From positions 1 to 43,681 of the forward strand of contig JAISSD010000237.1 in the NCBI GenBank assembly GCA_031273295.1: a stretch of 43,681 bases of DNA. The letters run 5' to 3'. Source of the DNA: Prevotella sp. Its GTDB lineage: Bacteria > Bacteroidota > Bacteroidia > Bacteroidales > Dysgonomonadaceae. Shown here one piece after another: positions 3,633 to 40,693 of this stretch (its first letter is position 1; each line of letters opens with the position of its first letter). The notes beneath the pieces are model-generated. The model did not search any database, was not told the origin of the DNA, and saw nothing but the letters and a program-made list of their open reading frames with translations. The position numbers and the translations under genes are program-made.

Positions 3633-3664
3633 CAAATGTACGTGGTAATATTACTATCGACAAG
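3633..3664 (-). promoter_or_regulatory. Early leftward Bacteroidetes-type promoter
   Basis: On the minus strand the -7 box is TACATTTG (3633-3640, matching TAnnTTTG). The -33 box is CTTG (3661-3664, one mismatch to TTTG), with a 20-base spacer. It points at the gene starting at 3594. One palindromic site lies in the spacer and another overlaps the -33 box. Confidence 0.6.
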
Positions 3665-3715: not shown

Positions 3716-3718
3716 TAT

Positions 3719-4138: not shown

Positions 4139-4174
4139 ATGTGGTAAAGTACATAAAAAATTCCAGGAAAAAAA

Positions 4175-20474: not shown

Positions 20475-23400
20475 TTAATATTTACTGCTAAAATTTTCGT
20501 AATCCTTCATTTTTGCATTGGTTTCTTTCAATGCCTGATAATTAACGCCCAGTCCGTTGGTTTCCGCACGATCGAGTATTTTACCCAGCCTGGATAGAAC
20601 TTCCCCGATTGCCGTTATATTCTGTTCACTATAATTAGCATCACCGGAATAGCGGATACCCGGATCATTGTAGCCGCCATCGGCAAGGCCTGCCGGCATC
20701 GGATTGCTGCCGGTACGCTGGCGCCGGATGCTTTCTATGGCCCGTATCATATCGCTGACTACCGGTATTTTCATTTCGGGCTGTGCAATGACATATTCGC
20801 CGGCATGGTAGTCCACGCCATTGGGGAATGTGCCTTTCACCTGGTAACGGCTACCGGGTCCGGTATAACCGCCGTCGATTCCTGCATCGTTATATCCTCC
20901 GTCGGCAAGGCCGTTGGCCACACGTGCATGAGTACTGGCCGAAGCGGAATTATCACTTGACGATGAATCTGTTTTTTTACCGATAAGGCCTTTCAGGGCG
21001 GATTTGGCCGCCATCATGGCTGCCGTGATCACGCCGGTAAGAATGGCAATACGTGCGAAACCCGTTGCGCCGAATGAAAGCACGGAATCGGGGGTTGCCA
21101 TAGCTTCGGCGGTACTGCGGGCGATAGCTCCGGTACCGGTAGCGGCCACTTTAATTATTTCGGTGTTGATCATCTGTGTAATGGTATCAAACAGTATATC
21201 AAGCATCACATCGGCAAAACTTTTCAGCGCATCTTCCTGTCCGGAGATGACGTCGCCCAATACCGCGCCTATGGAAGCGCCGTATTGCCGGTATTCATTT
21301 TTGCGCCGGTTAAATTCACCGGTATACAGTTTTGTAAGTTTCGATTCTTCCGAAGCCTGTTTTTTCAGGATATTTGAAATATCCAGTCCTGCGGCATTAC
21401 GGGCATCAACTTCTTCCTGAATAAGAGACAGGCGTTTCTTCTGGAGTTCTACTTCGGCATCGAAGGCTTTGGCTTGTGCAAGAGCGCCTGTATCCTTGTT
21501 AAGGGAAAGTGCATTGGCTTCGTCTTCGATGGCTTTCTGTTTGCCGGCTTTGTCCTTGCCGAATTTTTCCTGGAAATCTTCTTCTCCCTGCGCTTTTTCT
21601 TTTGCTCTGGCATCGTTCCGGATTTTCAGGAGATTGTCCTGATGTTGTTTTTCCAGGAGTTCCAGCGCATCTGATTTCTGCTGCAACAGAGTTTTTTCCT
21701 GTTCGGTTTCAGCTGACATCCGGAGCATCTGGAGTTCCTGTCTAGATTTACCATATATACCCAAATCACGCAGGCGCTCTTCATGTGCCCGTTTTTCCTG
21801 TTCTTGCGGATTGGCGACAAGAATAATCTGTTCCAGTTTTGCACGAAAAGCGATTTCCTGCTGCAAGCGCTTATTTTGTATTACGGCTATTTTGTTACTG
21901 ACGTCGTCTTTGACTTCCTTCCGTGTCGCATTGTCCTTGAATTCGGTCAAAGCCTGTTCGCGAATGATATAGGCAGCTTGCTCCTGCGAGAATATTTTCC
22001 GGTTGTATTCCGATTCGGATTTTATTTTACCATCCAGATATTCCTTATTTATCTTAGCCAGCTTGTTGTTATGCGCTGTATCCAGCGCCTCTATCAGTTC
22101 GTTCATCGATTTACGCTCGGCAAGCAGGATTTTAGCTTCTTTTTTTGCCTGATCCTTCTGTTGTTTGTCGCCGTCAACATTTTCCGTGAATCGTTGATCG
22201 CGGATTTGCCTGGCGAGCTGTAAAAATTCACTGGCCGCATTTTTTTCATCTTTTATCCATGCATCCAGTTCCTTTTTATTCATTTCAGTGAATCGGGTCC
22301 TGTTTTCCGACATTTTTTTCTGATGCTCGATTTGGTGTTCTATGGTTGTCCCGTTCAGGTCATCCAGGTATGCCCGAGTACCCCTTTGCAACTCAAGATA
22401 CTTTTCATATTCAGCCTTCGTCTCCTGATATTCTTTTTCGGACATCTTCCTCTTTTGGGATATAGTCTGCCCGCGACCGCTTGGTACGAAGTATGTTGTT
22501 TCTCCGGACATTAATTTGTCCTGGAGGATATCTACCTGGGTGGTATAGGATTTCAATTTTTTGGTTTGTTCGTCGATAGCATCTGCATTCATGACCTTTA
22601 GTTTGGCTTTTTGCGCCGCGATAAAGTCATAAACTTTAGCCGTATTTATGGACAGGACATTCCCGTATTGATCGAATTGAGTGATGACACCCGGAACCGT
22701 ATTCGACAGGATATTCATGATGCTGTTCAGTTCGGTTTGTTCATCTTTGTTCAAGATAGCCTTCCCTTTTAATTCGTCATATCTCCGGGCCAGTTTTTCT
22801 GTATTCAGTTCCAGATCCGCAACCTTCTCAAGCTGATTTTGGTAGCGGTCATTCAAACTGTCCGTATCCCCGGCAAGATTGGATATTTTGTCTGCAATAT
22901 TGCCGGATATTTCATCCCAAAGATTACCCAGCCATTGGAATTTTTGCCCGACTTTCAGTTGTGCATTCTCCCATTTTGTTGCGGCTTGAGCCGCTTTTTC
23001 AGCGCCCGTCAGAGCGGTATCTCCCTGCTCTTTCAACTTCTCGTTTACAATATTTAGAACGGCAACCGTAAAATCGCCTGTTTTCTTGACTTCGCTTTGA
23101 ACGCGACTGGCAGATATTCCAAGATTGTCGAGTACCAATGTTGATTTTCGGCCAAGGCCGTTCACAATAGAATCAGCCATCTCATCAATATCCGTTCCAA
23201 GTTTTTTGGCCTGCATTTGAGCAAACTTCATAAGATTTGCCATCTTGTCAATACCGATACCCAATTCATTGGCGCTAACGGCTTTTTCCATCAATTCAAG
23301 GTCGCTGACTGTACTTTTGGTTGCAGCACGCATCTCGTCCAGGTAATGTTTACTGTTATTGAGGCCGCTGAAAGCTTTTACAACGCCTTCAGCGCCGTTT

Positions 23401-24038
23401 GCCATACCTATTCCCGTTTTTATCCATTCTACACCGGCAGATACCCATTCCTTGATTTTATCGACGCCTTTTGTCATCATATTTCCGGCAAAAACAGCCA
23501 GGCTGTTCTGTAAGACAGATGTTGCTTCGCCGGCGCCTTTGCGAAGCTCTCCCATCCTGTCATTGACCCGGTTCAATTTTTTTTCAAGCGCATCATAAGC
23601 TTGGGAATCTACTGACTTGGAAGTGTTATCCAATTGTTTTTGAAGTTCAGCGGCACGCTTCTTTAATTGCGTCATGGTCATATCCTCTACCTTGAGGTTT
23701 TTGACCATTTCTTTGGCCTTGAGATCATTTTCTTCGATGGCCTTTTTATTGTCCCTGATGCGCTTCGTATAATCGGCCATGTCGCTGGCTGCAGATTTAT
23801 AAGTAGCTTTGGCCTCCCGGTATGCATTGCTGTCTTCCTTGCCAGCGGCTGCAAGTTTTTTCATTTCTTTTTCGGATTTGGCCATTTGTTTGGCTATTAG
23901 CTTCAATTCGGATTCCAGCAATTTGTTGTCAGCGGTCAGCTGTTGTGTCTCGGAAGATATCGTAGTCAGTTCCGACTGAAGGCCCTTTGCATCCAGCGAC
24001 AGTATCCATTTTATCTGGTCGTCTTTTAGTTTTGCCAT
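20475..24038 (-). CDS. Tape measure protein
   Basis: This is a 1187-residue protein with long coiled-coil helices in the first 200 residues (LKDDQIKWILSLDAKGLQSELTTISSETQQLTADN...) and again around 500-900. A TMP-type region occurs around 200-350 (GVVKAFSGLNNSKHYLDEMRAATKSTVSDLELMEKAVSANELGIG). A cluster of hydrophobic helices (about 960-1060, ITQMINTEIIKVAATGTGAIA ... ILTGVITAAMMAAKSALKGLIG) precedes a Gly-rich C-terminal part. It is the longest gene of the late region. Tape measures set tail length; this size implies a long, siphovirus-like tail. Confidence 0.85.
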   Translation of the reverse strand: MAKLKDDQIKWILSLDAKGLQSELTTISSETQQLTADNKLLESELKLIAKQMAKSEKEMKKLAAAGKEDSNAYREAKATYKSAASDMADYTKRIRDNKKAIEENDLKAKEMVKNLKVEDMTMTQLKKRAAELQKQLDNTSKSVDSQAYDALEKKLNRVNDRMGELRKGAGEATSVLQNSLAVFAGNMMTKGVDKIKEWVSAGVEWIKTGIGMANGAEGVVKAFSGLNNSKHYLDEMRAATKSTVSDLELMEKAVSANELGIGIDKMANLMKFAQMQAKKLGTDIDEMADSIVNGLGRKSTLVLDNLGISASRVQSEVKKTGDFTVAVLNIVNEKLKEQGDTALTGAEKAAQAATKWENAQLKVGQKFQWLGNLWDEISGNIADKISNLAGDTDSLNDRYQNQLEKVADLELNTEKLARRYDELKGKAILNKDEQTELNSIMNILSNTVPGVITQFDQYGNVLSINTAKVYDFIAAQKAKLKVMNADAIDEQTKKLKSYTTQVDILQDKLMSGETTYFVPSGRGQTISQKRKMSEKEYQETKAEYEKYLELQRGTRAYLDDLNGTTIEHQIEHQKKMSENRTRFTEMNKKELDAWIKDEKNAASEFLQLARQIRDQRFTENVDGDKQQKDQAKKEAKILLAERKSMNELIEALDTAHNNKLAKINKEYLDGKIKSESEYNRKIFSQEQAAYIIREQALTEFKDNATRKEVKDDVSNKIAVIQNKRLQQEIAFRAKLEQIILVANPQEQEKRAHEERLRDLGIYGKSRQELQMLRMSAETEQEKTLLQQKSDALELLEKQHQDNLLKIRNDARAKEKAQGEEDFQEKFGKDKAGKQKAIEDEANALSLNKDTGALAQAKAFDAEVELQKKRLSLIQEEVDARNAAGLDISNILKKQASEESKLTKLYTGEFNRRKNEYRQYGASIGAVLGDVISGQEDALKSFADVMLDILFDTITQMINTEIIKVAATGTGAIARSTAEAMATPDSVLSFGATGFARIAILTGVITAAMMAAKSALKGLIGKKTDSSSSDNSASASTHARVANGLADGGYNDAGIDGGYTGPGSRYQVKGTFPNGVDYHAGEYVIAQPEMKIPVVSDMIRAIESIRRQRTGSNPMPAGLADGGYNDPGIRYSGDANYSEQNITAIGEVLSRLGKILDRAETNGLGVNYQALKETNAKMKDYENFSSKY

Positions 24039-25456: not shown

Positions 25457-25460
25457 AATT

Positions 25461-26476: not shown

Positions 26477-27394
26477 TCAGTTAAAATAAAACCTGTCGTT
26501 TTCGTTTACGTTGACGGATGAGAAGCGCGGCGGGTCGGCGACATCCTTTTTGTTGTTTTTCACGGCATCTCTTTTCAGTCTTACATCCCAGTCAGTCCAG
26601 TAAGCCTGCGCTTTGCGTGCATATATGCCGGCTACTTTTTCCCGGATATAAGTATCGGCCTGCGCATTGTGATTTTTACCCATTTCGTTGCTGATATCCT
26701 TGCGGATCGGTTCAGGCAGGATCATGTATGCAAGGCGCATGCAGGCACGCGCCATGACATCGTAGCACAATGCGCGGGTATTGTAATCGTCCTTGACTAC
26801 CGGCTTTGGCAGGCGCGATTCTACACATTCCATCCATACTTCGCGTATAATCGACCGTACGGCGATGACGAAGTACAGATCAGGCACGCCTACCCACTTT
26901 TCGAAGTCTCCGGCATCGACAGGTATATCACTGTCCGTATCCGGATTCCAGCCGGGGAAATCATCGCTGTTGTCGTTCAGATAACCGACAAGCATGTTTA
27001 TCCAGAACCAGCCGGTGGTGACAAGGTTGTCGGACAGCTGATCCTGCTGGTATTTGAATACGGTGGTTTCGTCATCGTTTTTTTTTACGGTTACGCCATC
27101 GTTTCCGATACGGGTAATCAGGAAGATCAGATGCTCGTAAACAGAAAAATGGGCTATGGCGCGCTGCAAACAGTTGCGCGCCGTCATGCTTTTTTCTTCG
27201 TCAGGGGAGGCCGTACCGGTACACAGCAGGTCGTAAAACTCCTGTGTGAATATTTTGTACAGGAACACGGCAGCCTTGCACATGGAGCTCTCTATGTTCC
27301 TGTAGTCAAGCGTAACATTAACGCCGGATATCACCGTTTTGAATTCGGCGGCAAAAGTGGCAGGATTGGTGGTGTCGAACGGTAATTTTATCAT
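26477..27394 (-). CDS. DUF6712-like head-tail connector protein
   Basis: This is a 305-residue protein beginning MIKLPFDTTNPATFAAEFKTVISGVNVTLDYRNIESSMCKAAVFLYKIFTQEFYDLL. The N-terminal order (MIKLPF, short loop, two helices) and the long helical body (YDVMARACMRLAYMILPEPIRKDI) resemble DUF6712, a family I associate with Bacteroidales phage genes next to the portal. A head completion or connector role fits. It follows the portal gene. Confidence 0.6.
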   Translation of the reverse strand: MIKLPFDTTNPATFAAEFKTVISGVNVTLDYRNIESSMCKAAVFLYKIFTQEFYDLLCTGTASPDEEKSMTARNCLQRAIAHFSVYEHLIFLITRIGNDGVTVKKNDDETTVFKYQQDQLSDNLVTTGWFWINMLVGYLNDNSDDFPGWNPDTDSDIPVDAGDFEKWVGVPDLYFVIAVRSIIREVWMECVESRLPKPVVKDDYNTRALCYDVMARACMRLAYMILPEPIRKDISNEMGKNHNAQADTYIREKVAGIYARKAQAYWTDWDVRLKRDAVKNNKKDVADPPRFSSVNVNENDRFYFN

Positions 27395-27415: not shown

Positions 27416-28981
27416 CTAGTTATTCTCCGGAGTTGCATTACCCGCAGGGCGTTCGCTACCGGTGGTATCCTGGAGCTTGGAAGGAATGTCGATCCAGAAT
27501 CCCCATTTAATGCCCTGGGCTTTGGCTTCCGGGAAATTAATGTGCATGGCCCTGTTGTATTCCTTGAGTATAAAGTATTCGTCGAGCACCAGTTGCAGGA
27601 CATACATCAGGTAGTTGTACCAGGCTTCGTTGCCCGACCGGTTGGTCAATCCGGAATGGTCGACATTGGTAATGGAACCGGAGATGCCCAGGCTCATAAG
27701 TATGCTTTTGATGCTGCTTTCGTCGTATTTGTCCACGGCATCGAAAAACTCTTTGAATTTTCCGGGAAATTCCTTGAATTCCCAGCCTTCTTCGCCCCAT
27801 TTGAGCGTTGCGTAAAGTTTACCCTGGTTTTTGCCTTCGCCGGTCATCACTTCGGTGATCTTGGTCAGTTCGGCTTTGATTAGCTGATCCATCATGCCCT
27901 CGTAGAATCCAAGAGGACGGCCTTTTTTGTCGAGTAATTTTACCCCCCGGTATTCACTCTGTATAACTCCGTAGTCGGGATCGGAAGGGGCTATGTTGTC
28001 GGCGCATATTCCTTGCAGTATTTCCCTGTGCTTGTCGTACCAGGGCGCCGGAATGGTAGCATGTACATGATTGTTAAGGGCATTGCCAAGGTAACTGTTA
28101 CGGTATTTGGGGGCCAGCTTGCAGGCTTTAAGATATTCCCTGATGCCGGCAAACCAGTCGTTATAAGCGTAAGTCCATTTTGTAAACGTTTTGTCGGAGT
28201 TAAAGGCTATGGCTGCAGGATATTTTAAAGGTTCTTTCGGCGAAAAACGCGGAAATACTTCATAACCGGTACCGGTGATATTTATCCAGTCGCCGACAAT
28301 AACATACCGGCAGTCTTCGTTTTTTATCCTTTTGTTCAGGCCCGGATTCCGTGTGGCAAGGCGCGCTTCGTCCGCACCCACATATTTAAGCGCGTCGACA
28401 GGCATGCTCCCGTTTATGCGGCGCGACCTGGCATAACAGTATTGTGATACGCAAGTCTTGACATGGTAATAGTCGTTCATTATGTTTTTGAGATATTCCC
28501 ACGGATGGGGATATCCCTTTTCTTCCCAGCTTTCAGTCCATGCGATGATAGCTTGCGCAAGCCCGTCGTTAACCGGCATGCGGACGCGCTTTTGATTTTC
28601 ACCTTCGCCGGCGACTACTTCACGATAAAGCCTGGGGCCGCGTCCAAACAGGAAGCGAATCTGCTTGCCGATAAGCGTCGGTAACAGTTTGTTTTCGCTA
28701 ATGCCGGCAAATACTTCCTGCGGATACAGGTTGTGTCCATCGCCCCAAACGGGAACTACATAGCCGTCGGCCAGATTAAGCGTCATCCGGTCGCTGATAT
28801 ACCGGGAGTGTATCGTGCGGGTTTCCTCGAAAAATATATCTTCGCGGTCGGTTATACCCTGCACTTCGAACGTCACTACACCCACATCTTCAACAACGGC
28901 GTATCCGCGTTTTCCATCGAATGTCCTTACATCTGTTTTCGGGGATTTACCCGCACGTCCCGTTTTCGATTTTTTCTTCAT
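27416..28981 (-). CDS. Portal protein
   Basis: The product is 521 residues from the ATG at 28981 (MKKKSKTGRAGK), which overlaps the previous stop in an ATGA; a longer in-frame start at 29053 would overlap that gene more. The body has LPTLIGKQIRFLFGRGPRLYRE, YLKNIMNDYYHVKTCVSQYCYARSRR, the helix-rich wing region, KGRPLGFYEGMMDQLIKAELTKITEVM and a C-terminal DEYFILKEYNRAM. It has the size and clip/wing/stem helical pattern of portal proteins, and lies downstream of the terminase genes. Twelve copies of the family form the DNA channel in the head. Confidence 0.75.
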   Translation of the reverse strand: MKKKSKTGRAGKSPKTDVRTFDGKRGYAVVEDVGVVTFEVQGITDREDIFFEETRTIHSRYISDRMTLNLADGYVVPVWGDGHNLYPQEVFAGISENKLLPTLIGKQIRFLFGRGPRLYREVVAGEGENQKRVRMPVNDGLAQAIIAWTESWEEKGYPHPWEYLKNIMNDYYHVKTCVSQYCYARSRRINGSMPVDALKYVGADEARLATRNPGLNKRIKNEDCRYVIVGDWINITGTGYEVFPRFSPKEPLKYPAAIAFNSDKTFTKWTYAYNDWFAGIREYLKACKLAPKYRNSYLGNALNNHVHATIPAPWYDKHREILQGICADNIAPSDPDYGVIQSEYRGVKLLDKKGRPLGFYEGMMDQLIKAELTKITEVMTGEGKNQGKLYATLKWGEEGWEFKEFPGKFKEFFDAVDKYDESSIKSILMSLGISGSITNVDHSGLTNRSGNEAWYNYLMYVLQLVLDEYFILKEYNRAMHINFPEAKAQGIKWGFWIDIPSKLQDTTGSERPAGNATPENN

Positions 28982-29292
28982 AAAAACCATTTTATTTCGT
29001 ACCAGTTGTTGGAAGGAGAAAAACTGACAGCCCGTATAAGTTTCTTGAAGCACTGTCGCGGTTCATCGGTTTCTTCGTCTGTGAAATACAGGTAGTGATC
29101 GCTGTTTGTACTTAAACCTTCGCTCCGGCGTGCCGGGCGTATCCGACAACAGGAATAAACCCGGATCTTGCCGGATTTATCCGCCCTGTTCAGGTCGCAA
29201 GTGATGAACCTGATGGCGAACGTTGCTCCGGGCACAAGCTTTTGCCAGCGCATGCGTTCGATAGCTTCGGGGCCTGTCATTATCCTTTCCAT
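28978..29292 (-). CDS. Small protein upstream of the portal gene
   Basis: The longest frame starts at 29349 inside a terminator hairpin, so an ATG at 29292 (MERIMTGPEAIERMRW) or 29280 (MTGPEAIERMRW) is likelier. The product is about 100 residues, basic, with GATFAIRFITCDLNRADKSGKIRVYSCCRIRPARR and a C-terminal DEPRQCFKKLIRAVSF. The C-rich and Arg-rich character could be a small connector or DNA-contacting protein. It is coupled to the portal by an ATGA overlap. Family not recognised. Confidence 0.6.
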   Translation of the reverse strand: MERIMTGPEAIERMRWQKLVPGATFAIRFITCDLNRADKSGKIRVYSCCRIRPARRSEGLSTNSDHYLYFTDEETDEPRQCFKKLIRAVSFSPSNNWYEIKWFL

Positions 29293-30045: not shown

Positions 30046-30279
30046 CTAATCCGAATTGGTAATATAACCGCTTTCAATCAAACCGGCAACAAAGTTTTCC
30101 GGCGTGTCGAAACGGATATTTTTACTGCAATAAACTTTGTAGCGTTCTGCAAAGTTCTTCATGTATTCCTCGTCGGAACACTCGCTGTCGAAACGGCTGC
30201 TTAACCGTAATTCCGTTACGAACCGGCAGGGCGATTCCGCCTGAATCGTCCCGCCGTCTTCCAAATAATATTTTCTCAT
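30046..30279 (-). CDS. Small protein coupled to the amidoligase
   Basis: This is a 77-residue acidic protein (MRKYYLEDGGTIQAESPCRFVTELRLSSRFDSECSDEEYMKNFAERYKVYCSKNIRFDTPENFVAGLIESGYITNSD). It overlaps the amidoligase stop by 4 bases (ATGA). I associate proteins of this kind (RKYYLExGGT...LRxxSRFDSE...EYMxxFAERY) with amidoligase genes in Bacteroidales mobile elements, where they always accompany the enzyme. It might be an accessory subunit or the protein that is modified. No function is proven. Confidence 0.65.
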   Translation of the reverse strand: MRKYYLEDGGTIQAESPCRFVTELRLSSRFDSECSDEEYMKNFAERYKVYCSKNIRFDTPENFVAGLIESGYITNSD

Positions 30280-31235
30280 GCTGCCAATTCCAATGTTCTA
30301 TACTCAAAATAATTTACTAATTCCATGCTGTTGAAATTCCGTAGCGTTGCAAGCGTGTGCGTTGCCACTTCGTACTGTTCGGAATAATCGACCAGATTGC
30401 TTAAAAACCGAATCCAACTGCTTATCTTTACAAAATCGGTTGTTCCGGCGTGTTGCCTGAACTCGCAGGTTCTGTGGCGGCTGTACGATTGCGGGTTTAC
30501 TTTCCAGTACCGCGAATTTAGCAGTAAAATTTCAATACTGCGCAAATCCGCCGCGTTTTTTACTTTATGCTCGAAATTGTTTACGCTTCCAAAGCCTTTG
30601 CAGTAGGTGTTGTTGTTTGCCCTGCGGCTTTCCGGCATGAATCCGTCTATTACCTTTTCGAGCCGTCCGTAGTTGATGTATATCCGTTTCCACTGTTCGA
30701 GGCTGAATTGGCCCGCATTCAGGTGGACGTGCGTTCCGCAGGACTTGTTTACCTTTGCTCCGCACCTGTTCAGCACGTTGCAGACTTTCATTAGCTCGGC
30801 AAGCCCTGCTTCGCCTTTCAAAATCGGGCTTACAAGTTCAAATGTCCGGCTTCCCCTGATGCTGCTGTCCGTTACAAGTTTCCAGTGTGGTGTTGTGCGG
30901 TGGATGTAGCCTTCCATCTCGCAATCAATACCGGCATCGTTCAATTTCCGTTTCAATGTTTGCATATCCACGTTGCAGGCTTCAAACTCAACGCCGAAAT
31001 CCTTATTGAAGGCTCCCGGCGTCATTACCTCTTCGATAGCTGCCGTTACAATGGCTGCCTGATTGAGCCGCCCTTCGCGTTGCATTCTGGCGTACACGTT
31101 TTGAACAAATCCGTAATTGCCGTTTGTTACAAGTCCGGCGATTTCTGTGCGGGTTAATCCGAGTAAAATCAGCTGTTGGACTTTGTTTGTTTTCGTTGTC
31201 GGCTGCGACAGGATGTTTTGAATTTGCGCGTTCAT
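30276..31235 (-). CDS. Amidoligase (COOH-NH2 ligase, Amidoligase_2 family)
   Basis: This is a 319-residue protein. After a helical N-terminal domain (about 1-70), the amidoligase core shows FGVEFEACNVD (first acidic motif), WKLVTDSSIRGSRTFELVSPIL, CGAKVNKSCGTHVHLNAG (HVH motif) and RTCEFRQHAGT. These are the four conserved motifs of the COOH-NH2 ligase clan, related to glutamine synthetase and ATP-grasp-like enzymes. Family members are predicted to ligate amines to carboxylates of peptides or proteins, using ATP. It forms a two-gene unit with 30046-30279, placed between the terminase and portal genes. A weak promoter (-33 CTTG, -7 CACCTTTG) precedes it at 31268-31298. It may tag a protein, wall or phage component. 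Confidence 0.85.
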   Translation of the reverse strand: MNAQIQNILSQPTTKTNKVQQLILLGLTRTEIAGLVTNGNYGFVQNVYARMQREGRLNQAAIVTAAIEEVMTPGAFNKDFGVEFEACNVDMQTLKRKLNDAGIDCEMEGYIHRTTPHWKLVTDSSIRGSRTFELVSPILKGEAGLAELMKVCNVLNRCGAKVNKSCGTHVHLNAGQFSLEQWKRIYINYGRLEKVIDGFMPESRRANNNTYCKGFGSVNNFEHKVKNAADLRSIEILLLNSRYWKVNPQSYSRHRTCEFRQHAGTTDFVKISSWIRFLSNLVDYSEQYEVATHTLATLRNFNSMELVNYFEYRTLELAA

Positions 31236-31394: not shown

Positions 31395-33134
31395 TTAACT
31401 TGTATATACCCCTGTTCCTGTACCGTTATATTCCGGTTTCCTGCGATCGGAAGCCGGGAGCAGGCGGTTGAATTTACCCCATAACATATACATGAATGCA
31501 GATGCCAGCTGTGTGGAATAATAAGCCTGGTCTTCAAAATCGAGACGTTCGCTGCTTTTGTCCAGTTCTACGCGGCCTTCATTTTTTTTAAGCGGCGAAT
31601 GATTGATGGAACTGACCAGGGCCTCGCACTCGTTACGGTCGACAAGTATCTGCCATCCGGCGTTTTGCCCGAACAATTTGTTTAGCAGCCTGTAATGCTG
31701 TCCGTACCAAATTGTTTCCTGTCCCTTGCTTAGCAGGTGCACTGTCCATTTACGGGCTTTGAGAGCCGCAGACAGCAGATTGGCGTCGGTATCGTTCAAT
31801 CCGCCCGACAGGGGATAGTATTTCCTGTACTCGGGTTCTTTTTGATTTGCGGCCCGGTCATAATAAAGGAATATCTCCTTGCGTTTATGGTTTCTGAAAA
31901 AAGCATCTATTTTTTCGGCGAGTTCGTCGTGCTGGTCGGGATGATATACCCACATATCTTTGAGTACGCGAAAAATCCTTTTCGATTTTTCTTCCTGGGC
32001 AAATATGATACTTGAGAAGGGGCCCGCATCGTAACCGGCAATCAGCGGCATGTTCGGGTTGCAATACTTCAGGTCGGAGCTTAGCCATTCTATCCTGTCG
32101 CTGATAGAGTATTTGTCGGCTTGCCTGTAGTCGTATCCGTCTTCGAACAGGTGTTGCTTGCCGAACCGTCCGAAGAACATATTTTTCACTTTCGTTTTTC
32201 GAACTGCCATGATGGATGTGTTCAGCTTGTCGGAATCCTTTATGTTTTTAATCTGGTTGCGTATATATTCCACTCCCAATATCTTGATGTTGGAGAACGA
32301 GGAAGCCCTGAGATATAATGTTTGTCCGCGACGGGCGGCATTCAGGCGTGGCGTCCATCTGTCAAGGAATCGCCGGTATTTTTTTTCTTCGTCGAAGTCG
32401 GTATTCGCCCGTGCTTCGATTTGCGCAGCCATACGCATATCCACGTGGTAAGATATTTCGAGTATGCGTTTCATCAGCGCCGGATTCATATCGCTCTCGT
32501 ACTTTATCCACCAGTCTTCGTCGGTTTCGAAATTGGGAGTGCTTGAAAAACCGGTAATGCCCATAAAATAATGGGAATTGCCGAATTTGGAACGGTCGGC
32601 GCGCAATGCGGGGATGATCCGTTCGATAAATTTTTCTTCAGGGATACGGATCATTTCGTCGATGAACAGATGTGCGGCATTCAGGCCTAGCATTGATTCG
32701 GGACGATCGCAGGAAACAAACTTTATCACGGTACCGGTGACGAAAGTAATTGTGTGTTTGAAGTCGGTTGTTTTTTCAATTTCCATCCGGCTCCATGCAG
32801 GATTTTCCAATGCAGGCACACCGAAATGTGGAGGAGGTTGTTTGCCGTATTCAAAGTAAACACCGCGCTCGTATTCCTGGAGGAAGTATTCCAGTACTCC
32901 CGGCAGAATATTGTCGATGATGCTCTTGTATGTGGCTGCCGCCAGAACAAGCAAGGCGCCCGGCATATCGTTTTGAACCCGGTCTATTCTGGGAGCAAGC
33001 ATATGAGTAGTCTTGCCGGAACCACGACCGACTTCTCCGAACAGGAATGTCGGGTCAAGGAGTTTTACCATTATCTGTACAATAGACAGATAGGCGTGCA
33101 GGAATACGTTTTGGCTGTATTTTTTAATCTTCAT
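31395..33134 (-). CDS. Terminase large subunit (TerL)
   Basis: The ATG at 33134 (MKIKKYSQN) is chosen; an upstream ATG at 33158 would overlap the previous gene more. Walker A is FGEVGRGSGKTTH, Walker B HLFIDEM, and a coupling motif GITGFSSTPNFE follows. The C-terminal nuclease domain has IAGYDAGPFSSIIFAQEE, LYYDRAANQKEP and DFEDQAYYSTQLASAFMYM, giving the RNase H-like acidic residues. TerL pumps DNA into the prohead and cuts it. It follows two small-terminase candidates and ends the packaging cluster. Confidence 0.9.
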   Translation of the reverse strand: MKIKKYSQNVFLHAYLSIVQIMVKLLDPTFLFGEVGRGSGKTTHMLAPRIDRVQNDMPGALLVLAAATYKSIIDNILPGVLEYFLQEYERGVYFEYGKQPPPHFGVPALENPAWSRMEIEKTTDFKHTITFVTGTVIKFVSCDRPESMLGLNAAHLFIDEMIRIPEEKFIERIIPALRADRSKFGNSHYFMGITGFSSTPNFETDEDWWIKYESDMNPALMKRILEISYHVDMRMAAQIEARANTDFDEEKKYRRFLDRWTPRLNAARRGQTLYLRASSFSNIKILGVEYIRNQIKNIKDSDKLNTSIMAVRKTKVKNMFFGRFGKQHLFEDGYDYRQADKYSISDRIEWLSSDLKYCNPNMPLIAGYDAGPFSSIIFAQEEKSKRIFRVLKDMWVYHPDQHDELAEKIDAFFRNHKRKEIFLYYDRAANQKEPEYRKYYPLSGGLNDTDANLLSAALKARKWTVHLLSKGQETIWYGQHYRLLNKLFGQNAGWQILVDRNECEALVSSINHSPLKKNEGRVELDKSSERLDFEDQAYYSTQLASAFMYMLWGKFNRLLPASDRRKPEYNGTGTGVYTS

Positions 33135-33768
33135 CTTCAGTTTCTTCAAATTCCGCATACTTGTTTATGTCCAGTTCACGGCCTGCTTCGAGTTTCAGCC
33201 TGTCTTTTTCGCTTTGGTCGATATGCCTGGCGTCGATGATCTCTTCTATCTCCTTCCATGCTGCCAGAATGCCCACCGGCGATGTATCTATCATCCGCTC
33301 CAGCTTGACATCGGCAGATACTATCTGAGGCTTGAATCTAATACGTTCCGGAGCGATGATATTGGCAGCGGCAGCAACTCTGTATTTGTGCGCCTGAACA
33401 GCGCAAAGCCGGGCTTCTTTTCTTCCATGGGCATCTGCTGCCATGAGATTCACATCGGCCAGGTTCATCATGTAGTCTGCAAAATAATTATTCCAGGCAA
33501 CGGCTGTAACCGTACAGTCGGTATTAAAAAAATTTATCGCATCGCATACCCGCTGCCGGCATAGGGGGATGGATACTTTCGGATACAATTTTTGCAGTTG
33601 TCTGGCGCACTCGCCTACGTTACGGTACTTCCGGAACAGGTTGGATGCATCGTTCAGTTCCAGGATAAAGTTTCCCAAAGCTTCGGATATCCCGACTTTT
33701 TTATGGTCGCGAAGTTCCAGAAATCTTTCCAGGATATCTACAGGTAATCGTTGCAGGTGTTCGAGCAT
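33124..33768 (-). CDS. Putative terminase-associated protein
   Basis: This is a 214-residue, almost fully helical protein (MLEHLQRLPVDILERFLELRDHKKVGISEALGNFILELNDASNLFRKY). It ends in a very acidic tail (EFEETEDED). It lies directly upstream of TerL with an overlap, the normal place for a small terminase subunit. The helical bundle and acidic tail fit that role, but no HTH is clear. It could be the real small subunit or a terminase partner. Confidence 0.6.
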   Translation of the reverse strand: MLEHLQRLPVDILERFLELRDHKKVGISEALGNFILELNDASNLFRKYRNVGECARQLQKLYPKVSIPLCRQRVCDAINFFNTDCTVTAVAWNNYFADYMMNLADVNLMAADAHGRKEARLCAVQAHKYRVAAAANIIAPERIRFKPQIVSADVKLERMIDTSPVGILAAWKEIEEIIDARHIDQSEKDRLKLEAGRELDINKYAEFEETEDED

Positions 33769-33781
33769 AATTTTTTGTTCA

Positions 33782-34084
33782 TCACAGATTAAACTTTTCG
33801 CGTATTGCCGTTTCCAGTATTTTTATATGTTGCCGCCGGTTTAGCTTCTCGTTGGCGTCAGCATCGTTTGCTTTGGCGGCGTCGAACAGGGCTTTATCCA
33901 TTGTATATTGTCCGGTAACTTTTCCTTTATGGTAAGCCCGGTATATCACACTCTGCGTATCTTGCAAATCTGTTTCGAACTGTTCCGGATCTTCCGGATC
34001 TACAAGGAAAGCGATTTCATGCGCCGGATATCCAAGCACGCCAAAAGCCTTTACCTTTTCAATGAATGCATTATCGTAGCTCAT
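33782..34084 (-). CDS. Small-terminase-like protein, copy 1
   Basis: This is a 100-residue protein. It starts MSYDNAFIEKVKAFGVLGYPAHEIAFLVDPEDPEQF, which resembles the helix-turn-helix of small terminase subunits. It ends TMDKALFDAAKANDADANEKLNRRQHIKILETAIREKF, the same ALxDAAxxxDxDAxEKL helix pair as the protein at 29390-29755. The two are probably paralogues with separate packaging roles. It is coupled to both the methyltransferase and the 33124-33768 gene. Confidence 0.65.
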   Translation of the reverse strand: MSYDNAFIEKVKAFGVLGYPAHEIAFLVDPEDPEQFETDLQDTQSVIYRAYHKGKVTGQYTMDKALFDAAKANDADANEKLNRRQHIKILETAIREKFNL

Positions 34085-35390
34085 ATTCCTTCAGTTGTTC
34101 TTCGGTTAATACTACGCCGTTTTTTTTCACTGTGACCGGTTTGCCGGCATTTTGCATGTATCTGACGTATCTTCGAATATTCAGGTCACAGTATCCCGGG
34201 TCCAGGTCTGCGGCATAGCAGCTCCTGTTAGTTTGCTCCGATGCGATGATGGTTGTTCCGGAACCGGAGAATATATCAAGTACGATGTGGCCAACAAGAC
34301 TGCAATCCATAATTGCGTCGGCTACCAGCTTTACGGGTTTAGGGGTTGGATGGTCTTTTGTACCTATGTCTGCAGATTTACCGAAGTAATTGGCACCGGG
34401 ATAATCCCAAACGTTTGTGCGATATCTTCCGGTCTGGCCTAGCATAAAGTTGTTTATGTTGCGTTCGCGCCCGCTTTTGAATGCGTATATCAGCTCATGC
34501 TTCGAGCGGTAAAATGTACCCATACCGCCGTTGTTTTTGTTCCAGACTATAATGTTCTTGCACTCGGAATATACTTTTCCGGCAGTACTTATCTCAAGGA
34601 CATGCTTCCAGTCCATACATACAAAGTGGATGGAACCTTTGACGGAGTACCGGATCAATACCAGGAAGCATTTCTTCAGGAACCCGGTGAACTGTTCTTC
34701 CGTCATTTCGCCAACCCCCATAACAAACGTTTGTACATCATTATACCCGAATCCAGTGAATTCCCTTGGTTTGAGATTATATGGCGGATCGGTAAATATC
34801 ATATGTGCATACTTGCCGTCCATCAACCGGCCTACTACATTCATATCCGTGCTGTCGCCACATATCAGCCTGTGTTCACCCAGCTCATAAAGATCATCTA
34901 TCCGGGTTACCGGATTCTTTGGCGGCAAGTCGTTAAACTCATCCTCCATAAGCTCTCGCTCCTTGTCCTTGCTTTGTGTTATCTGGTCTGCCGATGGCAG
35001 GTTAGCGTCCATCACAGGCAACTCCATTACCATGATATCCTTATACAAATTGCCGAAGTGCTCTTCCAGTTTTGGCAAATCCCATGTGCCGGCATGTGTG
35101 TTTGCCAGTAGCATGTATTGTTTTACTTCCTCCTCTGTCAACATCCGGGATGGAACACGCACATCTACCATTTCATCCGAATGTCCGCGCTCAATGTAAT
35201 ACTCCAGTCGCCGGTGGCCTGATATTAATTGCTCATCCATGTTGATCACCGGCGTGTCCACCAGACCGAACTTATCCAGGCTTTCATTTAGAACTGACTG
35301 CCCTTTCTCATTTCTTTCTCTGGGATTATAGCCTGACGGGATCAGGTCTCGCACCCTTCGTTGTTCTGTTTTCCAAAATAGTTTACTCAT
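34071..35390 (-). CDS. ParB-like domain fused to beta-class DNA methyltransferase
   Basis: This is a 439-residue protein. Residues about 1-115 are a ParB/sulfiredoxin-like domain (RVRDLIPSGYNPRERNEKG then VINMDEQLISGHRRLEYYIERG). The methyltransferase has catalytic DPPY at 201-204 (MIFTDPPYNLKPREF) before the SAM-binding motif DIFSGSGTTIIASEQ near 375, the beta-class order for N6-adenine or N4-cytosine methylation. These ParB-methyltransferase fusions are frequent in phage packaging and defence-evasion regions. It is the first gene of the packaging operon. Methylation may protect phage DNA or mark the packaging site. Confidence 0.85.
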   Translation of the reverse strand: MSKLFWKTEQRRVRDLIPSGYNPRERNEKGQSVLNESLDKFGLVDTPVINMDEQLISGHRRLEYYIERGHSDEMVDVRVPSRMLTEEEVKQYMLLANTHAGTWDLPKLEEHFGNLYKDIMVMELPVMDANLPSADQITQSKDKERELMEDEFNDLPPKNPVTRIDDLYELGEHRLICGDSTDMNVVGRLMDGKYAHMIFTDPPYNLKPREFTGFGYNDVQTFVMGVGEMTEEQFTGFLKKCFLVLIRYSVKGSIHFVCMDWKHVLEISTAGKVYSECKNIIVWNKNNGGMGTFYRSKHELIYAFKSGRERNINNFMLGQTGRYRTNVWDYPGANYFGKSADIGTKDHPTPKPVKLVADAIMDCSLVGHIVLDIFSGSGTTIIASEQTNRSCYAADLDPGYCDLNIRRYVRYMQNAGKPVTVKKNGVVLTEEQLKEYELR

Positions 35391-35816: not shown

Positions 35817-36284
35817 CTAACTAAGTATATCCTGTATGGCTTTTTGCTTTATTCGGGCCTTTTCCAGATTATTCTGCCATGACTGGCGTTCTTCTTCGTC
35901 TTTATACTTTTTATTGTGTAGCTGGCTTTCTATGCGCCTTATATTTTGAGTTGTATTGGTTATCTCTTTCATGAAAGCAGAGGGGTCTTCCGATTTAAGT
36001 TTGCGGAGTTCGGCCAGCTGATCTTTTTTATATTTAGTATGTATGGTCAGCCTGTGCACGTATTGGAATTTACCGGTATCGTTGTATGATTGTAGTTCCC
36101 TATGCGCCTGCTGCGCCCGAATATCCAGTGTAACGAGTTCCAACGCCAATTCCGTGTGGTCATCCAATATAGCATCAATCTCCTGTAGACGATGGTAAAT
36201 GGTTACGCGTTCGTCGTACAGGAGAATGCAAAGCTGTATATCAGGATCGGTATTCCTGAACCAGTTTATTTGGGGGAACTCTTC
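35817..36284 (-). CDS. Probable -1 frameshift extension of the 36266-36877 gene
   Basis: The frame stays open from 36302 to the stop at 35817, but between 36302 and 36167 it has no ATG, GTG or TTG start; the first conventional start codon is a TTG at 36167. Yet the upstream part reads as real protein: EEFPQINWFRNTDPDIQLCILLYDERVTIYHRLQEIDAI. It joins, by a -1 shift at A-AAA-AAG (36284-36290), to the gene at 36266-36877, giving a 353-residue fusion (198 + 155). The extension is all-helical with a coiled coil (VHRLTIHTKYKKDQLAELRKLKSEDPSAF). Tail-assembly chaperone fusions such as lambda G-T work this way, but the proximity to the capsid genes leaves a head role possible. Confidence 0.7.
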   Translation of the reverse strand, partial: EEFPQINWFRNTDPDIQLCILLYDERVTIYHRLQEIDAILDDHTELALELVTLDIRAQQAHRELQSYNDTGKFQYVHRLTIHTKYKKDQLAELRKLKSEDPSAFMKEITNTTQNIRRIESQLHNKKYKDEEERQSWQNNLEKARIKQKAIQDILS

Positions 36285-36877
36285 TTTTTTGCTCCTTTTT
36301 TTTTATCAGCCGGCACTTTGACCTTGGGCGGTGCTTCCGGTGTACCGATTTCTGTTGTTTCCTTTGGCGCTTCGTTTGCCGGCACTTCCGGCTGGGTGAC
36401 GTCTTTTGCCTGACCGGTAGCTGTGGCGTCTGCTATCGGATTGGTAGCTGTGGTGGTACCGGTACTTGTACTCTGTTCGGGTACTTGCCCCATCAGCTTT
36501 TCTACAGCGTAGATAATTTCTTCCTCTGTTTTGTCAATCCATAATGGAACGATTTCCGATAATGCTGTCAAATCTTTTTCATCGAAGTCGAAGTGTTCGA
36601 CCAGGAGTTTTTGAATGTCGGCTTCGGTTCGGGGTTCGGGGTCTGGCTGTATTTCTTTTGTTCTGTTTTCCAGAATTTCATCGGGACTTGTGATGTCCAG
36701 CAAGGCTGTTATCATCAGGGCGTCCAGTTTCGCTTTGTTGAATTGATTTACGTTGGCCAGCTGATTGAACAGGGGATGTATCTGGAATTTCTTTTTGAAG
36801 AGTTCCAAATCCTTGTCGAAGAATGCGGGATTCTTCAGTCTTACTATCTGGTCGTTTCGCTCGGTGAATTTTCGCAT
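36266..36877 (-). CDS. Head/tail assembly protein with slippery C-terminus
   Basis: The unshifted product is 203 residues. The helical N-terminal domain (residues 1-130: KFTERNDQIVRLKNPAFFDKDLELFKKKFQIHPLFN ... EEIIYAVEKLMGQVPEQ) is followed by a Thr/Ala/Pro-rich linker. The end is Lys-rich (VPADKKKGAKKKSSPK). The A-AAA-AAG heptamer lies in its last codons. It may be a tail assembly chaperone or a head-scaffold partner; position after the capsid genes cannot decide. No family recognised. Confidence 0.65.
   Translation of the reverse strand: MRKFTERNDQIVRLKNPAFFDKDLELFKKKFQIHPLFNQLANVNQFNKAKLDALMITALLDITSPDEILENRTKEIQPDPEPRTEADIQKLLVEHFDFDEKDLTALSEIVPLWIDKTEEEIIYAVEKLMGQVPEQSTSTGTTTATNPIADATATGQAKDVTQPEVPANEAPKETTEIGTPEAPPKVKVPADKKKGAKKKSSPK
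36284..36290 (-). promoter_or_regulatory. Programmed -1 frameshift slippery heptamer A-AAA-AAG
   Basis: In the zero frame the codons are GCA AAA AAG AAG AGT TCC CCC AAA TAA. A AAA AAG is the heptamer used by E. coli dnaX. After slipping, translation continues GAA GAG TTC CCC CAA, into the long open -1 frame. A 6-base stem (36254-36259 with 36241-36246) lies about 24 bases downstream, farther than is usual, and GGAG occurs one base upstream. Confidence 0.65.
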
Positions 36878-36903: not shown

Positions 36904-37704
36904 TTAGGCCCGGTATACTTCGAAGAAGGCAAATCCGGTCTCTGTTTTTGTTATCTGGAAGCTGATCCTGCTGCCTGCGGATGCGATGAAGTCCAAGCCG
37001 CGGTTTAAAATGAATTTTGCGGAGGTGGCGATCGTTGTCGGATGGGCGGAACCGGTTCCAAGTATTTCTATTATACGACCGATATCATCGGCTGTCACAT
37101 TGGTGATATCTGTTAATACGGTGTCAGCTGTGTTTTCGGACAGTTGATACTGTGGTTTTGGCGTGAGGGCGAATGTGGTGGCATCGGGTGCAACGGGAAC
37201 GGGTGGTTCGACGGGAACAGGGCCGTCGTAAAACAATATGGGTTCGGGGCATTGTCCTCCGGTGAGGGTGGATGCGATGCCTGCGGTGCCATCTTCCTGA
37301 CGGCCTATGGATGTGTAGGCGAACCTCATTCCGCCATTGCAGCCGTTGCCGGCAATGAATTTCTGGCTGTCGGAGCATCTTTCCCATATTGCGACAAAGT
37401 CTTCTCCGACGTTTTCGTAAACCCATGTCAGGGATTGTTTTGATATGCCGTCAATGACTGGCGACAGGGTGAGTACTCCGTTAAGTGGCGCCTGGCCGGG
37501 TACTGCGTTCGGGTTGATGGTATCGGTACGGGCATCGAGGTATTTGAAGTATGCGCCCGGCAACACTGGTATGGCGTTGATGGTGGCGGCTACGGCTTTG
37601 GGGAAGTTGTCGATATCGACGTTTTTTATATTTATCAGCCAAAGGCGGAATTTCAGGGTATCCAGCTTTGAGTTTTTGTCTTGTTTTGGCAGGTCAAAAA
37701 GCAT
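36904..37704 (-). CDS. Capsid-associated or major tail protein with capsid-like C-terminal domain
   Basis: This is a 266-residue beta-rich protein (MLFDLPKQDKNSKLDTLKFRLWLINIKNVDIDNFPKAVAATINAIPVLPG). A Pro/Val linker (VPVEPPVPVAP) leads to a C-terminal domain of about 90 residues: ENTADTVLTDITNVTADDIGRIIEILGTG. The same arrangement (ANTADTEITDIQNMNINNVIRIVCGS) ends the major capsid protein. The N-terminal domain could be a major tail tube or head decoration; the shared domain suggests surface display. It follows the capsid gene. Confidence 0.65.
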   Translation of the reverse strand: MLFDLPKQDKNSKLDTLKFRLWLINIKNVDIDNFPKAVAATINAIPVLPGAYFKYLDARTDTINPNAVPGQAPLNGVLTLSPVIDGISKQSLTWVYENVGEDFVAIWERCSDSQKFIAGNGCNGGMRFAYTSIGRQEDGTAGIASTLTGGQCPEPILFYDGPVPVEPPVPVAPDATTFALTPKPQYQLSENTADTVLTDITNVTADDIGRIIEILGTGSAHPTTIATSAKFILNRGLDFIASAGSRISFQITKTETGFAFFEVYRA

Positions 37705-37791: not shown

Positions 37792-39777
37792 TTACGCGGT
37801 TATTTTGCGTTCGAGTTCCAGGTAGTTGCCTGTTGGCCTGGTCATGGTTACGTTTTCGTTGTCTACGACTTCCGTATAGTCTTCCAGCTCGGCGTAGAGT
37901 TCGATGTAATCGCCTACGGCTGCGGGTTCCCAGTCGGATGTGATGTTTGCAAATTTACCGCCTTTGGTGATGGTTGTTGCATTGGTCATGCTGCCGCATA
38001 CTATTCTGATTACGTTGTTGATATTCATGTTCTGGATATCGGTTATTTCGGTGTCAGCGGTATTGGCGGCTGTTTCGAACAGTATGTTGAGCCTGGCATT
38101 TACAATGGTTGCATCCGGGGCTAGCGTGCTTGCGGGATAGTTGGTGAAAATCCACTGGCTGGCGTATTCGGATGCAACCAGTTCTGCAGGCGTCTTGTAC
38201 TGGATGCCTGCCTGCTGGAATCCTGCGCCTTCTTTCCAGCGGGACATTACTCCGATTTCTTCCCAGTCGCGTTCGAAGTAGAAGGCAAGCATTTCGAAGG
38301 GTTTGTCTTCGTAGTTTTCTGCGTTGCCGGGGATGGTAATCATTATTTTGTAATTGTTTGGCTGCATGTTTGGCACCCATACAATATTGGCGTCTACGTC
38401 TATGACGGATTCGGGAGTGACTCCGCTAAAGTCGGAATCCCTGCCGTATTTGTCGCGGAAATTGCGGATGTACCATGAACGGTGTTTGAGGTTTGCGTAT
38501 AGTTTGTATCCGTCCATTGACGGTATTACCTGCGTGTAAAAATCCCATATTGCTTCGAAGTAGTTGACGATGGTTGTTTCGTCGTATATCCGGTAATCGT
38601 GGTTGGGATATATTTTGAGGTCTTTTTCTACGCGGTCAAGCGCCCGGTAAATACCGTCGGCGGCCAGCATGGCGGGGTTTGCAACGACATCCTGTTGCGG
38701 CACACGTACTCCGGTGACGCGCCGCATGTTCTGTTCGTTGCGCAGGATTGTGCCGAAATGTACCATTATCCATTCGATGAATGTCCACTTGATGACGTTG
38801 GAGCCTTCGCGGTTCAGGTATCCGATATACTGTTTTTCGAGTTTTATCAGGTCTTTGAACAGGAATTTGAACATTACGTCTACTACGCTGTATATTTCGG
38901 CTGTGAAGGCTACGTTTCCTTTGAAAATCTTTCCGGCACGGTAGCCTTGTGAAAGTTCTCCGAAGTTGGCTCCGGGTGCAATTTCCTTGTTTTGGATGTT
39001 GGATACCATCGGGAATATGCTGTCGACGGACGGGAGTGTGCGGATGTAGGCCAGTATGAGGTCTGTCCTTCTGACGATGTATTCTCCGGCTTTGCCAAAG
39101 AGGTCTGAATAGTCGATGGCGCTTTCTCCTGCGATCATTTTTTTGAAGTCCAGGGATCCCAGCAGGTTGTCCTTTTCGAGGGCGCCTGCGCGTTCCATGA
39201 GTTTTTGGGAGTAGTCGTTCAGGATGTTTTTGAATTCTTTTTTCCGGGACAGGTTGAGCTTGGATACCATTGGCGTGCGGCTTACCATCAGTTCTGTGTC
39301 CCAGCGGCCACGTGCGAAGATTTTGTCTTCGATGCCGAACAGGTGGGATGATGTGTGCGGCGCTATGCCAAGGGTAATGGCTTTTACTTTGGCGGGTGTC
39401 TGTTCGGCTTTTACGGTTTGGGCCGGGATGACCGGTTCCGGAACTTTGGAAAGTGTCCCGATGGTTTTTTCCTGTTCTTTTACTTTTTTTACCAGGGCGG
39501 GAACTGCTTCTGTTTTTGTTTTTGGTTTGTCGGGGCCAAAAATGGAGGCAAGGGAGATCTGGTCTTCGGGAGACAGGATGTTTGTATCGTCATCGTCGCT
39601 GTCGTCGTCGTCATCGTCGGCTTCTCTGTCGGCCTGGAATGCGATACTGTATTCTTTTTCGTATTCGGCGAAGAGTTGTTTTTGCTCGTCCGCGGTCAGG
39701 GTACCTGTTTTCATCTTGTCGCCAAAGCCGAGTTTGGTAACAAGTTTGACAAGTCTTTTTTGCCATTTTTTTTTCAT
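37792..39777 (-). CDS. Major capsid protein with N-terminal scaffold-like region and C-terminal surface domain
   Basis: The ATG at 39777 (MKKKWQKRLVKL) is chosen, 5 bases after the protease stop, rather than the longer 39822 start. The product is 661 residues. Residues about 20-165 are charged (a long Asp run, coiled coil, VKKVKEQEKTIGTLSKV), like an internal scaffold that the protease removes. The main part (about 200-540) has the capsid-typical mix (SIFPMVSNIQNKEIAPGANFGEL, TFIEWIMVHFGTILRNEQNM, VWVPNMQPNNYKIMITIPG). The last 100 residues are a beta domain shared with the protein at 36904-37704. The protease gene is directly upstream. Confidence 0.75.
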   Translation of the reverse strand: MKKKWQKRLVKLVTKLGFGDKMKTGTLTADEQKQLFAEYEKEYSIAFQADREADDDDDDSDDDDTNILSPEDQISLASIFGPDKPKTKTEAVPALVKKVKEQEKTIGTLSKVPEPVIPAQTVKAEQTPAKVKAITLGIAPHTSSHLFGIEDKIFARGRWDTELMVSRTPMVSKLNLSRKKEFKNILNDYSQKLMERAGALEKDNLLGSLDFKKMIAGESAIDYSDLFGKAGEYIVRRTDLILAYIRTLPSVDSIFPMVSNIQNKEIAPGANFGELSQGYRAGKIFKGNVAFTAEIYSVVDVMFKFLFKDLIKLEKQYIGYLNREGSNVIKWTFIEWIMVHFGTILRNEQNMRRVTGVRVPQQDVVANPAMLAADGIYRALDRVEKDLKIYPNHDYRIYDETTIVNYFEAIWDFYTQVIPSMDGYKLYANLKHRSWYIRNFRDKYGRDSDFSGVTPESVIDVDANIVWVPNMQPNNYKIMITIPGNAENYEDKPFEMLAFYFERDWEEIGVMSRWKEGAGFQQAGIQYKTPAELVASEYASQWIFTNYPASTLAPDATIVNARLNILFETAANTADTEITDIQNMNINNVIRIVCGSMTNATTITKGGKFANITSDWEPAAVGDYIELYAELEDYTEVVDNENVTMTRPTGNYLELERKITA

Positions 39778-39781
39778 AAAA

Positions 39782-40693
39782 CTATTTTTTAAATGATGAA
39801 TAAATTGATTGTTTTTCGTCATGAAGGGACTGGAGGGCTTGGGCAGCTCCTTCGAAATTTGTAATGCCGTCGATCAGTCCGTATGTGACGGCGTCTGCGG
39901 CATAAAAGTCTTTTCCCTGGATGATGCCTTCTATTGAAAGGTCAAGTTTGGGCCGGTTGTCTTTTATCAGGTTCTGGAAATGGATGGCGTATGGGGACAG
40001 GTCTTCCTGTACCAGCATTTTGTCGTCTCCTTCTTTGGCCTGCCGGTATGCCAGGTTTTTGAATTTGGATTCGGGCGGGGTCACAATGATGAATTTTATA
40101 CCGTAGTTTTCATACATTTTGTCGTCGTCGACTATCTGGATATATACGCCTATGTTGCCTGCTATGCACATCGGGTTGGTGGCTAGAATGCGGTCGCAAA
40201 ATGACAGGGCGTATATGCCTCCGGAGCAGCACATGCCGTCGATCAGGCCTATGGATGGTTTTGTACGGTTGCGGAGCGCGTCTTCGAGCTGGATTACGGA
40301 TTGGGATGTTCCTCCGGGTGTGTTGGCAAGAAGGATGGTTCCTATGATTTTTGATGACGAGTCGGCCAGTCTGATCAGGTTTGCCATGGAGTCCATGCCA
40401 TAGTTCCACCACGAGTCGTATTTTAGCATTGTGCCTATGACGGGTATTACGGCAATGGAATTTTCTTCGAAATTGTCGAAGGGATTTCCGGAGTAGTTTT
40501 CGTCGGGCAGGATGAAAGCCGAGTTCCGGATTTTGTTTTCGATGCCCAAGGTGGTGAAAAATGTTTTTATATCCTGTTGCGGCGGTTTTTCTCCTTTTAC
40601 GAGTTTTTGGACAAGGGTTTCCAGACTGCCGAATGATGATGGATGCATCAACAGTTTTGATAAAAGGATTTCGTTTAATAAAAGTTCCAGCAT
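39782..40693 (-). CDS. Prohead protease, S49/SppA-ClpP type
   Basis: This is a 303-residue protein. It has NTPGGTSQSVIQLEDAL, then the catalytic loop GLIDGMCCSGGIYALSFCD (Ser157), AGNIGVYIQI and ENYGIKFIIVTPPESKFKNLA (base Lys at 210 or 212). The order of Ser and Lys is that of S49 peptidases. Phage members cleave scaffold and capsid N-termini during head maturation. It ends 4 bases before the capsid start, supporting this. The N-terminal about 75 residues are a helical extension that could bind the scaffold. Confidence 0.9.
   Translation of the reverse strand: MLELLLNEILLSKLLMHPSSFGSLETLVQKLVKGEKPPQQDIKTFFTTLGIENKIRNSAFILPDENYSGNPFDNFEENSIAVIPVIGTMLKYDSWWNYGMDSMANLIRLADSSSKIIGTILLANTPGGTSQSVIQLEDALRNRTKPSIGLIDGMCCSGGIYALSFCDRILATNPMCIAGNIGVYIQIVDDDKMYENYGIKFIIVTPPESKFKNLAYRQAKEGDDKMLVQEDLSPYAIHFQNLIKDNRPKLDLSIEGIIQGKDFYAADAVTYGLIDGITNFEGAAQALQSLHDEKQSIYSSFKK

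Follow-up and report, generated by a model that had tools for sequence, protein, structure and literature searches.

In a group of phages of gut and mouth bacteria, one virion-assembly gene retains a run of nine A's, apparently so that the enzyme copying it sometimes stutters and the same gene gives two proteins, one short and one long. The gene was recognised in 43,681 nucleotides of Prevotella sp. DNA (contig JAISSD010000237.1, hereafter the window), where two overlapping frames on the minus strand, A and B, meet at the run. Slippage of RNA polymerase there probably yields both an A-only protein and an A-B fusion; that the slip would occur during transcription, and that it would set a ratio of the two products, we infer from sequence comparison. 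It is usual to attribute the programmed frameshifts of phage structural genes to the ribosome. If the nine A's slip as proposed, RNA-polymerase slippage would be a standing device of phage morphogenesis.

36266..36877, minus strand: ORF A, 203 aa; A was matched in 103 of 107 loci, one of them (L100) at E=0.35 only
35817..36302, minus strand: open frame of B, -1 relative to A, 161 codons counted from the run of nine A's
36296..36304, minus strand: run of nine A's, conserved putative slip site, codon phase 0 (GAT AAA AAA AAA GGA)
36284..36290, minus strand: A-AAA-AAG heptamer named in the preliminary description, in frame, not conserved (3 of 56 clusters)

ORF A has a conserved N-terminal part, followed by a linker of low complexity (T/A/P) and an end rich in Lys. 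The preliminary description had joined A and B by a programmed -1 ribosomal frameshift at the heptamer, and much of this is borne out: the heptamer lies at 36290-36284 in the end of ORF A, the -1 frame is free of stops as far as 35817, its first ATG, GTG or TTG is the TTG at 36167, and the computed translation is an A-B fusion of 353 residues. The conserved frame change and the lack of a start of its own for B also stand. The slip site does not, since the B frame opens at 36302, inside the run and upstream of the heptamer, and the conserved element is the run. Homologues, when aligned, retain the open -1 frame but mostly lack the heptamer; a second in-frame A_AAA_AAR downstream of the run was found only in the window, L084 and L094. 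B is indeed -1 to A, but a ribosomal slip is not the best reading of that relation, as the length of the run is kept whatever its codon phase. A slip in the run or at the heptamer gives the same 353 aa with different junctions (RS against GA), so that the junction peptide would be KKKRSKKEEF in the former case and KKKGAKKEEF in the latter. The conserved domain of B begins at 36284 (EEFPQINW).

Conservation of the run among homologues

Homologues were collected with B peptides as queries, so the run did not bias the sample. A tblastn search of B against phages gave 20 records, of which 18 are prophages in Porphyromonas gingivalis; two IMG/VR scans contributed 2 and 64 loci, and species genomes 21. 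When whole genomes were searched, matches came from 6 of 61 relatives and, at the level of the order, from 12 of 393 genomes, both counts including the genome of the window; among 395 genomes of the phylum that genome alone matched. A second genome draw, of nearly the same set, gave 11 matches, all found before. In total, 107 loci with B were obtained, forming 71 clusters at 90% B identity; L009 and L095, which are the window itself, were left out before counting, and L014 and L015 repeat the contigs of L001 and L002.

The frame relation of A to B was set by A and B profiles. By locus, 88 are -1, two are +1, 13 have a single in-frame ORF and four are without A (L005, L054, L062 and L087); in these four the contig starts 217-325 bases before B, and all carry the nine A's. 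By cluster, 54 have nine A's with B in -1, two have ten with B in -1, two have eight with B in +1, ten are in frame, two are without A and one (L100) is doubtful, being included in the 71 clusters and outside the 58 split ones.

The run is exactly nine long in 54 of the 58 split clusters and never shorter than eight, while its codon phase is 0, 1 or 2 in 21, 17 and 16 clusters respectively. Control runs, taken from ORFs of at least 200 aa outside A and B in the same loci, comprised 59, 25 and 4 runs of seven, eight and nine A's, i.e., exactly nine in 4 of 88, and the excess of nine at the site gave a Fisher p of 4e-30, although the rows are not independent. A quick tree was built from 69 B proteins (L100 and L104 left out); many of its branches are weak, and on it the codon phase changes at least ten times at a constant length of nine. 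Between L041 and L050, whose B proteins are 92% identical, the run has shifted by one base and is still nine long, and in the P. gingivalis prophage records nine A's were found in 18 of 18, with nine distinct junction sequences.

All A/T runs of at least nine were also scanned blind in a single locus from each cluster, in the window and in one complete phage record. The 174 run readings, from both strands, led to 40 candidate rows (some loci being listed twice), of which 39 were this site and one its antisense (L016); of the 58 split clusters, the filters recovered the site in 32 and failed to do so in the others, the window included. Sequencing or assembly error was rejected as the source of the nine A's, which occur in isolate genomes (e.g., L074, L075, L077, L081, L082) as well as in MAGs, metaviromes and the 18 P. 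gingivalis prophage records.

Two small groups depart from this pattern. In L053 (950-957) and L091, whose B proteins are 77% identical, G4A8 replaces the nine A's and B is in +1, so that length and frame have changed together; the L091 run lies 30 bases before B. In L092 and L093, both MAG contigs, there are ten A's, 22 bases before B, which is still in -1. Both pairs are poorly explained by either a polymerase or a ribosomal mechanism.

The probable A-B fusion and the origin proposed for the slip

The two overlapping frames are real. In the A/B overlap of 74 non-independent pairs, base differences fall preferentially on B-frame codon position 3 (184/186/336 of 706), and codon differences were 159 synonymous and 281 non-synonymous for B against 50 and 405 for A. 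There is no ATG, GTG or TTG from the run to the tryptophan at B position 8 in 54 of 56 clusters (the exceptions being L046 with GTG and L066 with TTG), nor any standard start codon in the open B frame upstream of the run in the 56. The residues ahead of any start are nevertheless conserved in an alignment of 32 sequences, W8 being invariant and E2, P4 and I6 nearly so. These sequence patterns make it very probable that the fusion is made in phages of this group, and the existence of single-ORF relatives indicates that it is a functional product. All 18 P. gingivalis records (L003, L004, L007, L008 and L117-L130) annotate two genes, with residue 33, an internal ATG, taken as the start of B, and thereby miss its first 32 conserved residues.

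As to how the fusion would arise, most transcripts are expected to carry the templated nine A's and to give protein A, which stops shortly after the run. In a fraction of transcripts RNA polymerase would slip on A9/T9, mostly adding one A, and ordinary translation of the A10 message would enter the -1 frame. The -1 change is what 56 of the 58 split clusters need (those with nine or ten A's), and one extra A supplies it. According to passages of a 2016 review, RNA polymerase has an RNA-DNA hybrid of 9-10 bp, slippage in vivo is efficient at nine A's or T's, and Thermus dnaX transcripts gain one or more A's (PMC5009743); Baranov et al. (2005, PMC1088944) state that a run of nine A's whose length is conserved among homologues very likely denotes purposeful transcriptional slippage. 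A homopolymer of about nine at the frame switch, conserved in length and followed by a conserved shifted-frame extension, is what was found here, save for the two clusters with eight A's and the two with ten.

The main competitor in mechanism, which we consider unlikely, is programmed -1 ribosomal frameshifting at a heptamer within the run (A_AAA_AAA or A_AAA_AAG), as in dnaX and insertion sequences, which would make the same proteins. An in-frame A_AAA_AAR overlaps the run in all 56 clusters with nine or ten A's, B is in -1 in 56 of 58, and ribosomal -1 shifts are common in the tail chaperones of phages, as stated in part of the same review (PMC5009743). Retention of the run's length in any codon phase favours RNA-polymerase slippage over such a heptamer. 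A ribosomal -1 heptamer requires seven bases in one codon phase, and constraint of that kind alone is not what is seen: nine A's are retained in all three phases, and the run slides at constant length. Moreover, 25 of 66 in-frame heptamers elsewhere end in AAG, whereas the site has no run shorter than eight in 58 clusters. A Shine-Dalgarno-like motif was rejected as a stimulator, being present in 13 of 56 (23%) against 23% in control windows, and so was a conserved downstream hairpin, with a mean z of -0.80 against -0.28 at +200 and -0.4 in the window, although strong downstream structure does occur in a few clusters (L072, z -8.6; L079, z -5.5).

Separate translation of B from a non-standard or internal start, such as the ATG at residue 33 or an ATA that overlaps the stop codon of A, is very improbable. 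A normal ATG start for B in homologues had been put forward in the preliminary description as evidence against frameshifting, and the 18 annotated records, together with a nearly invariant M33, would fit it; the frame change itself is nevertheless conserved, the residues ahead are too (W8 in 32 of 32), the constraint on the B frame extends back to the run, position 33 in the window is L, and the whole B domain is present in single-ORF relatives. Least probable is phase variation, in which replication slippage in the run would toggle the fusion within a population. Tracts of nine A's are prone to such slippage, and one single-ORF relative (L027) has nine A's, though before its ATG; none of the 107 loci, however, combines A and B in frame with a run of at least seven A's at the junction within the ORF (run lists of nine rumen loci and L105-L108), and the uniform length in the 18 P. 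gingivalis prophages, with their nine distinct junctions, also speaks against it.

RNA-polymerase slippage has its own difficulties besides the heptamer present in all 56 sites. One inserted A would not serve the pair with eight A's and B in +1; nine A's without a split gene exist, in four control runs and in the window, so that the run alone is not diagnostic; and single-ORF relatives manage without the short form. The window's example is a coding-strand run (27078-27086) inside a DUF6712 gene in which no split ORF was noticed, and it offers a natural control for the cost of slippage.

On balance we favour a wider account in which host RNA polymerase would set the short:long ratio in a group of phages mostly of Bacteroidales, replacing a lambda-like ribosomal frameshift. 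Selection would act on the length of the run, on neither its position nor its phase, matching the 9-10 bp hybrid; a rumen lineage would have hard-wired the long form, and another gone over to eight A's and the opposite frame. The run may also serve, as it occurs in nature, to report slippage by the host bacteria's RNA polymerase.

Gene neighbourhood, single-ORF relatives and possible function

The neighbouring genes in the window are as follows.

39782..40693, minus strand: head maturation protease (S49)
37792..39822, minus strand: major capsid protein, by gene order and P. gingivalis phage annotation; its start may be the ATG at 39777
36904..37704, minus strand: gene of 266 aa preceding A, possibly for the tail tube or another virion protein
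34071..35390, minus strand: ParB-like/DNA methyltransferase, next downstream of B
31395..33158, minus strand: terminase large subunit, by gene order, with a Pfam Terminase_6N match below cut-off
27416..29053, minus strand: portal, by gene order
20475..24038, minus strand: tape measure protein (phrog_167, E=1.8e-4), about 12 kb from A/B

The possible capsid start at 39766-39777 is an ATG followed by nine A's (ATG AAA AAA AAA TGG), beyond the stop codon of the protease gene (39782). At 30276-31235 an amidoligase was recognised (PF12224, E=1.7e-38), and a SufE-like domain protein (PF02657, E=1.9e-18) lies at 24507-24902, between portal and tape measure.

Pfam, PHROGs and NCBIfam gave only weak matches or families of unknown function for A, B, the A-B relatives and the 266-aa gene. 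A PDB profile search with B gave no match up to E=5, and one with the 266-aa gene gave antibody chains at E 0.02 or worse among 60 of 856 matches. The gene before A forms one family, 41 of 42 sequences being linked by blastp, and 24 of these 42 relatives match phrog_19897 (unknown function). It is tentatively a tail tube gene: the L023 homologue matches tail tube phrog_185 (E=1.4e-4) over half of the profile, and the phrog_185 search of the window's own genome gave no match. A phrog_3267 'tail protein' match (L089:4208-5281) was rejected as support, because it belongs to an extra gene, the L089 tube homologue being at 3265-4185. In three loci (L073:4896-5549, L092:4714-5697, L034:2033-3043) the tube-like gene opens with a long hydrophobic stretch of the kind seen in signals and membrane anchors, an unusual feature in a virion protein. 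The tube-like profile also matches the major capsid protein in L037:2466-4460 (E 2e-5) and L113:9034-11253 (E 2.5e-13), suggesting that the two share a domain. The preliminary description had placed the pair after the capsid genes and away from the tape measure. The distance from the tape measure holds; the former statement is amended by the intervening gene, which may be the tail tube.

A-B occurs as one in-frame ORF in 10 of 71 clusters, six from rumen and four distant. The rumen clade (L025-L033) has a single ORF, lacks the run and falls within phages with nine A's (supports 98 and 87 on the quick tree); in L027, L030 and L031 the gene lies beside the portal, apart from the capsid and tube genes. 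In the four distant clusters, represented by the longer stretches L110-L113, A-B lies between a tube-like gene and the terminase in 4 of 4. Their order matches that of the split phages, with the capsid gene recognised in three of the four. Among named phages, homologues were found in Ingeline (gp47) and 6H (gp23), both Duneviridae, and in Bacteroides phage BT-TP2 (gp13), each an uninterrupted ORF unlike the split A/B. The distant relative in L112 matched these three by tblastn at E 5e-25, 1e-14 and 9e-20 respectively, and the B profile, in one-protein searches, at 5e-9, 8e-5 and 9e-8. The A domain is clear only in BT-TP2 (E 2e-9) and weak in Ingeline and 6H (0.014 and 0.059); a tblastn search with A itself (P0001) against phages gave no match, though its profile recognises A there. 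A tube-like gene lies upstream in all three as in the split phages, being adjacent only in BT-TP2, the single ORF of which has nine A's at its extreme end. Ingeline is described as siphovirus-like in part of one paper (PMC8776804), and passages of the literature on Ingeline and laban6-1 mention no virion proteomics for these genes.

Less firmly than the slip in transcription is proposed, the two products may be a pair of assembly proteins of the virion, perhaps of its tail, made in a set short:long ratio; there is about an even chance that they form a tail-assembly-chaperone pair of the gpG/gpGT kind. The contrary view, in which A-B would be a single ordinary protein of the virion or of morphogenesis, with A-only as a by-product and no chaperone pair, has a little under an even chance. 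It agrees with the two groups and the named phages encoding A-B as a single ORF, with the relocation of the gene beside the portal in the rumen clade, with the 12 kb to the tape measure and with the absence of homology of A and B to a named family. In BK068107 (L109), two annotated genes in different frames (25412-25801 and 25713-26177), which share some 90 bases and immediately precede the tape measure, could fill the chaperone role there. On the other hand, the split at nine A's is retained in 54 of 71 clusters, suggesting that both forms matter, and the window has no evident split pair just before its tape measure. The in-frame relatives provide a natural comparison for the old question of why a short and a long assembly protein are kept.

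Comparison with known systems

The nearest precedent for the proposed mechanism is dnaX of Thermus thermophilus, which likewise carries nine A's on the sense strand and gives heterogeneous mRNA and two products with a common N-terminus, according to passages of two papers (PMC5009743, PMC1088944). There, however, the slip yields the shorter product, whereas in the phage gene it would be needed for the longer one, and the phage run, unlike that of Thermus dnaX, lies in a virion-region gene and is conserved across a phage group. Insertion sequences with nine A's linking overlapping orfA and orfB, of which part of one study lists 27 elements in five organisms, share this arrangement and the length criterion with A/B (PMC1088944), but encode a transposase instead of a virion-region protein.

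A poly-A tract in a Campylobacter phage methyltransferase prompted a passing suggestion of slippage (PMC2853527), and an Acinetobacter prophage topoisomerase and tape measure are said to appear made by transcriptional slippage (PMC6095929), both in passages of the papers; the P. gingivalis phage paper, in the parts available, mentions frameshifts once, for spanins (PMC10367356). Among the matches listed from open-access papers, none demonstrated transcriptional slippage in a virion gene of a phage.

Lambda gpG/gpGT resembles A/B in making a short protein and a -1 extended one from a structural-operon gene beside a possible tail-tube gene. A/B differs in that sequence similarity to that pair was not found, the run has a fixed length in free codon phase, the pair lies away from the tape measure and some relatives have the fused form only. 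The class of mechanism is known, and its use in this phage gene would be a new variant.
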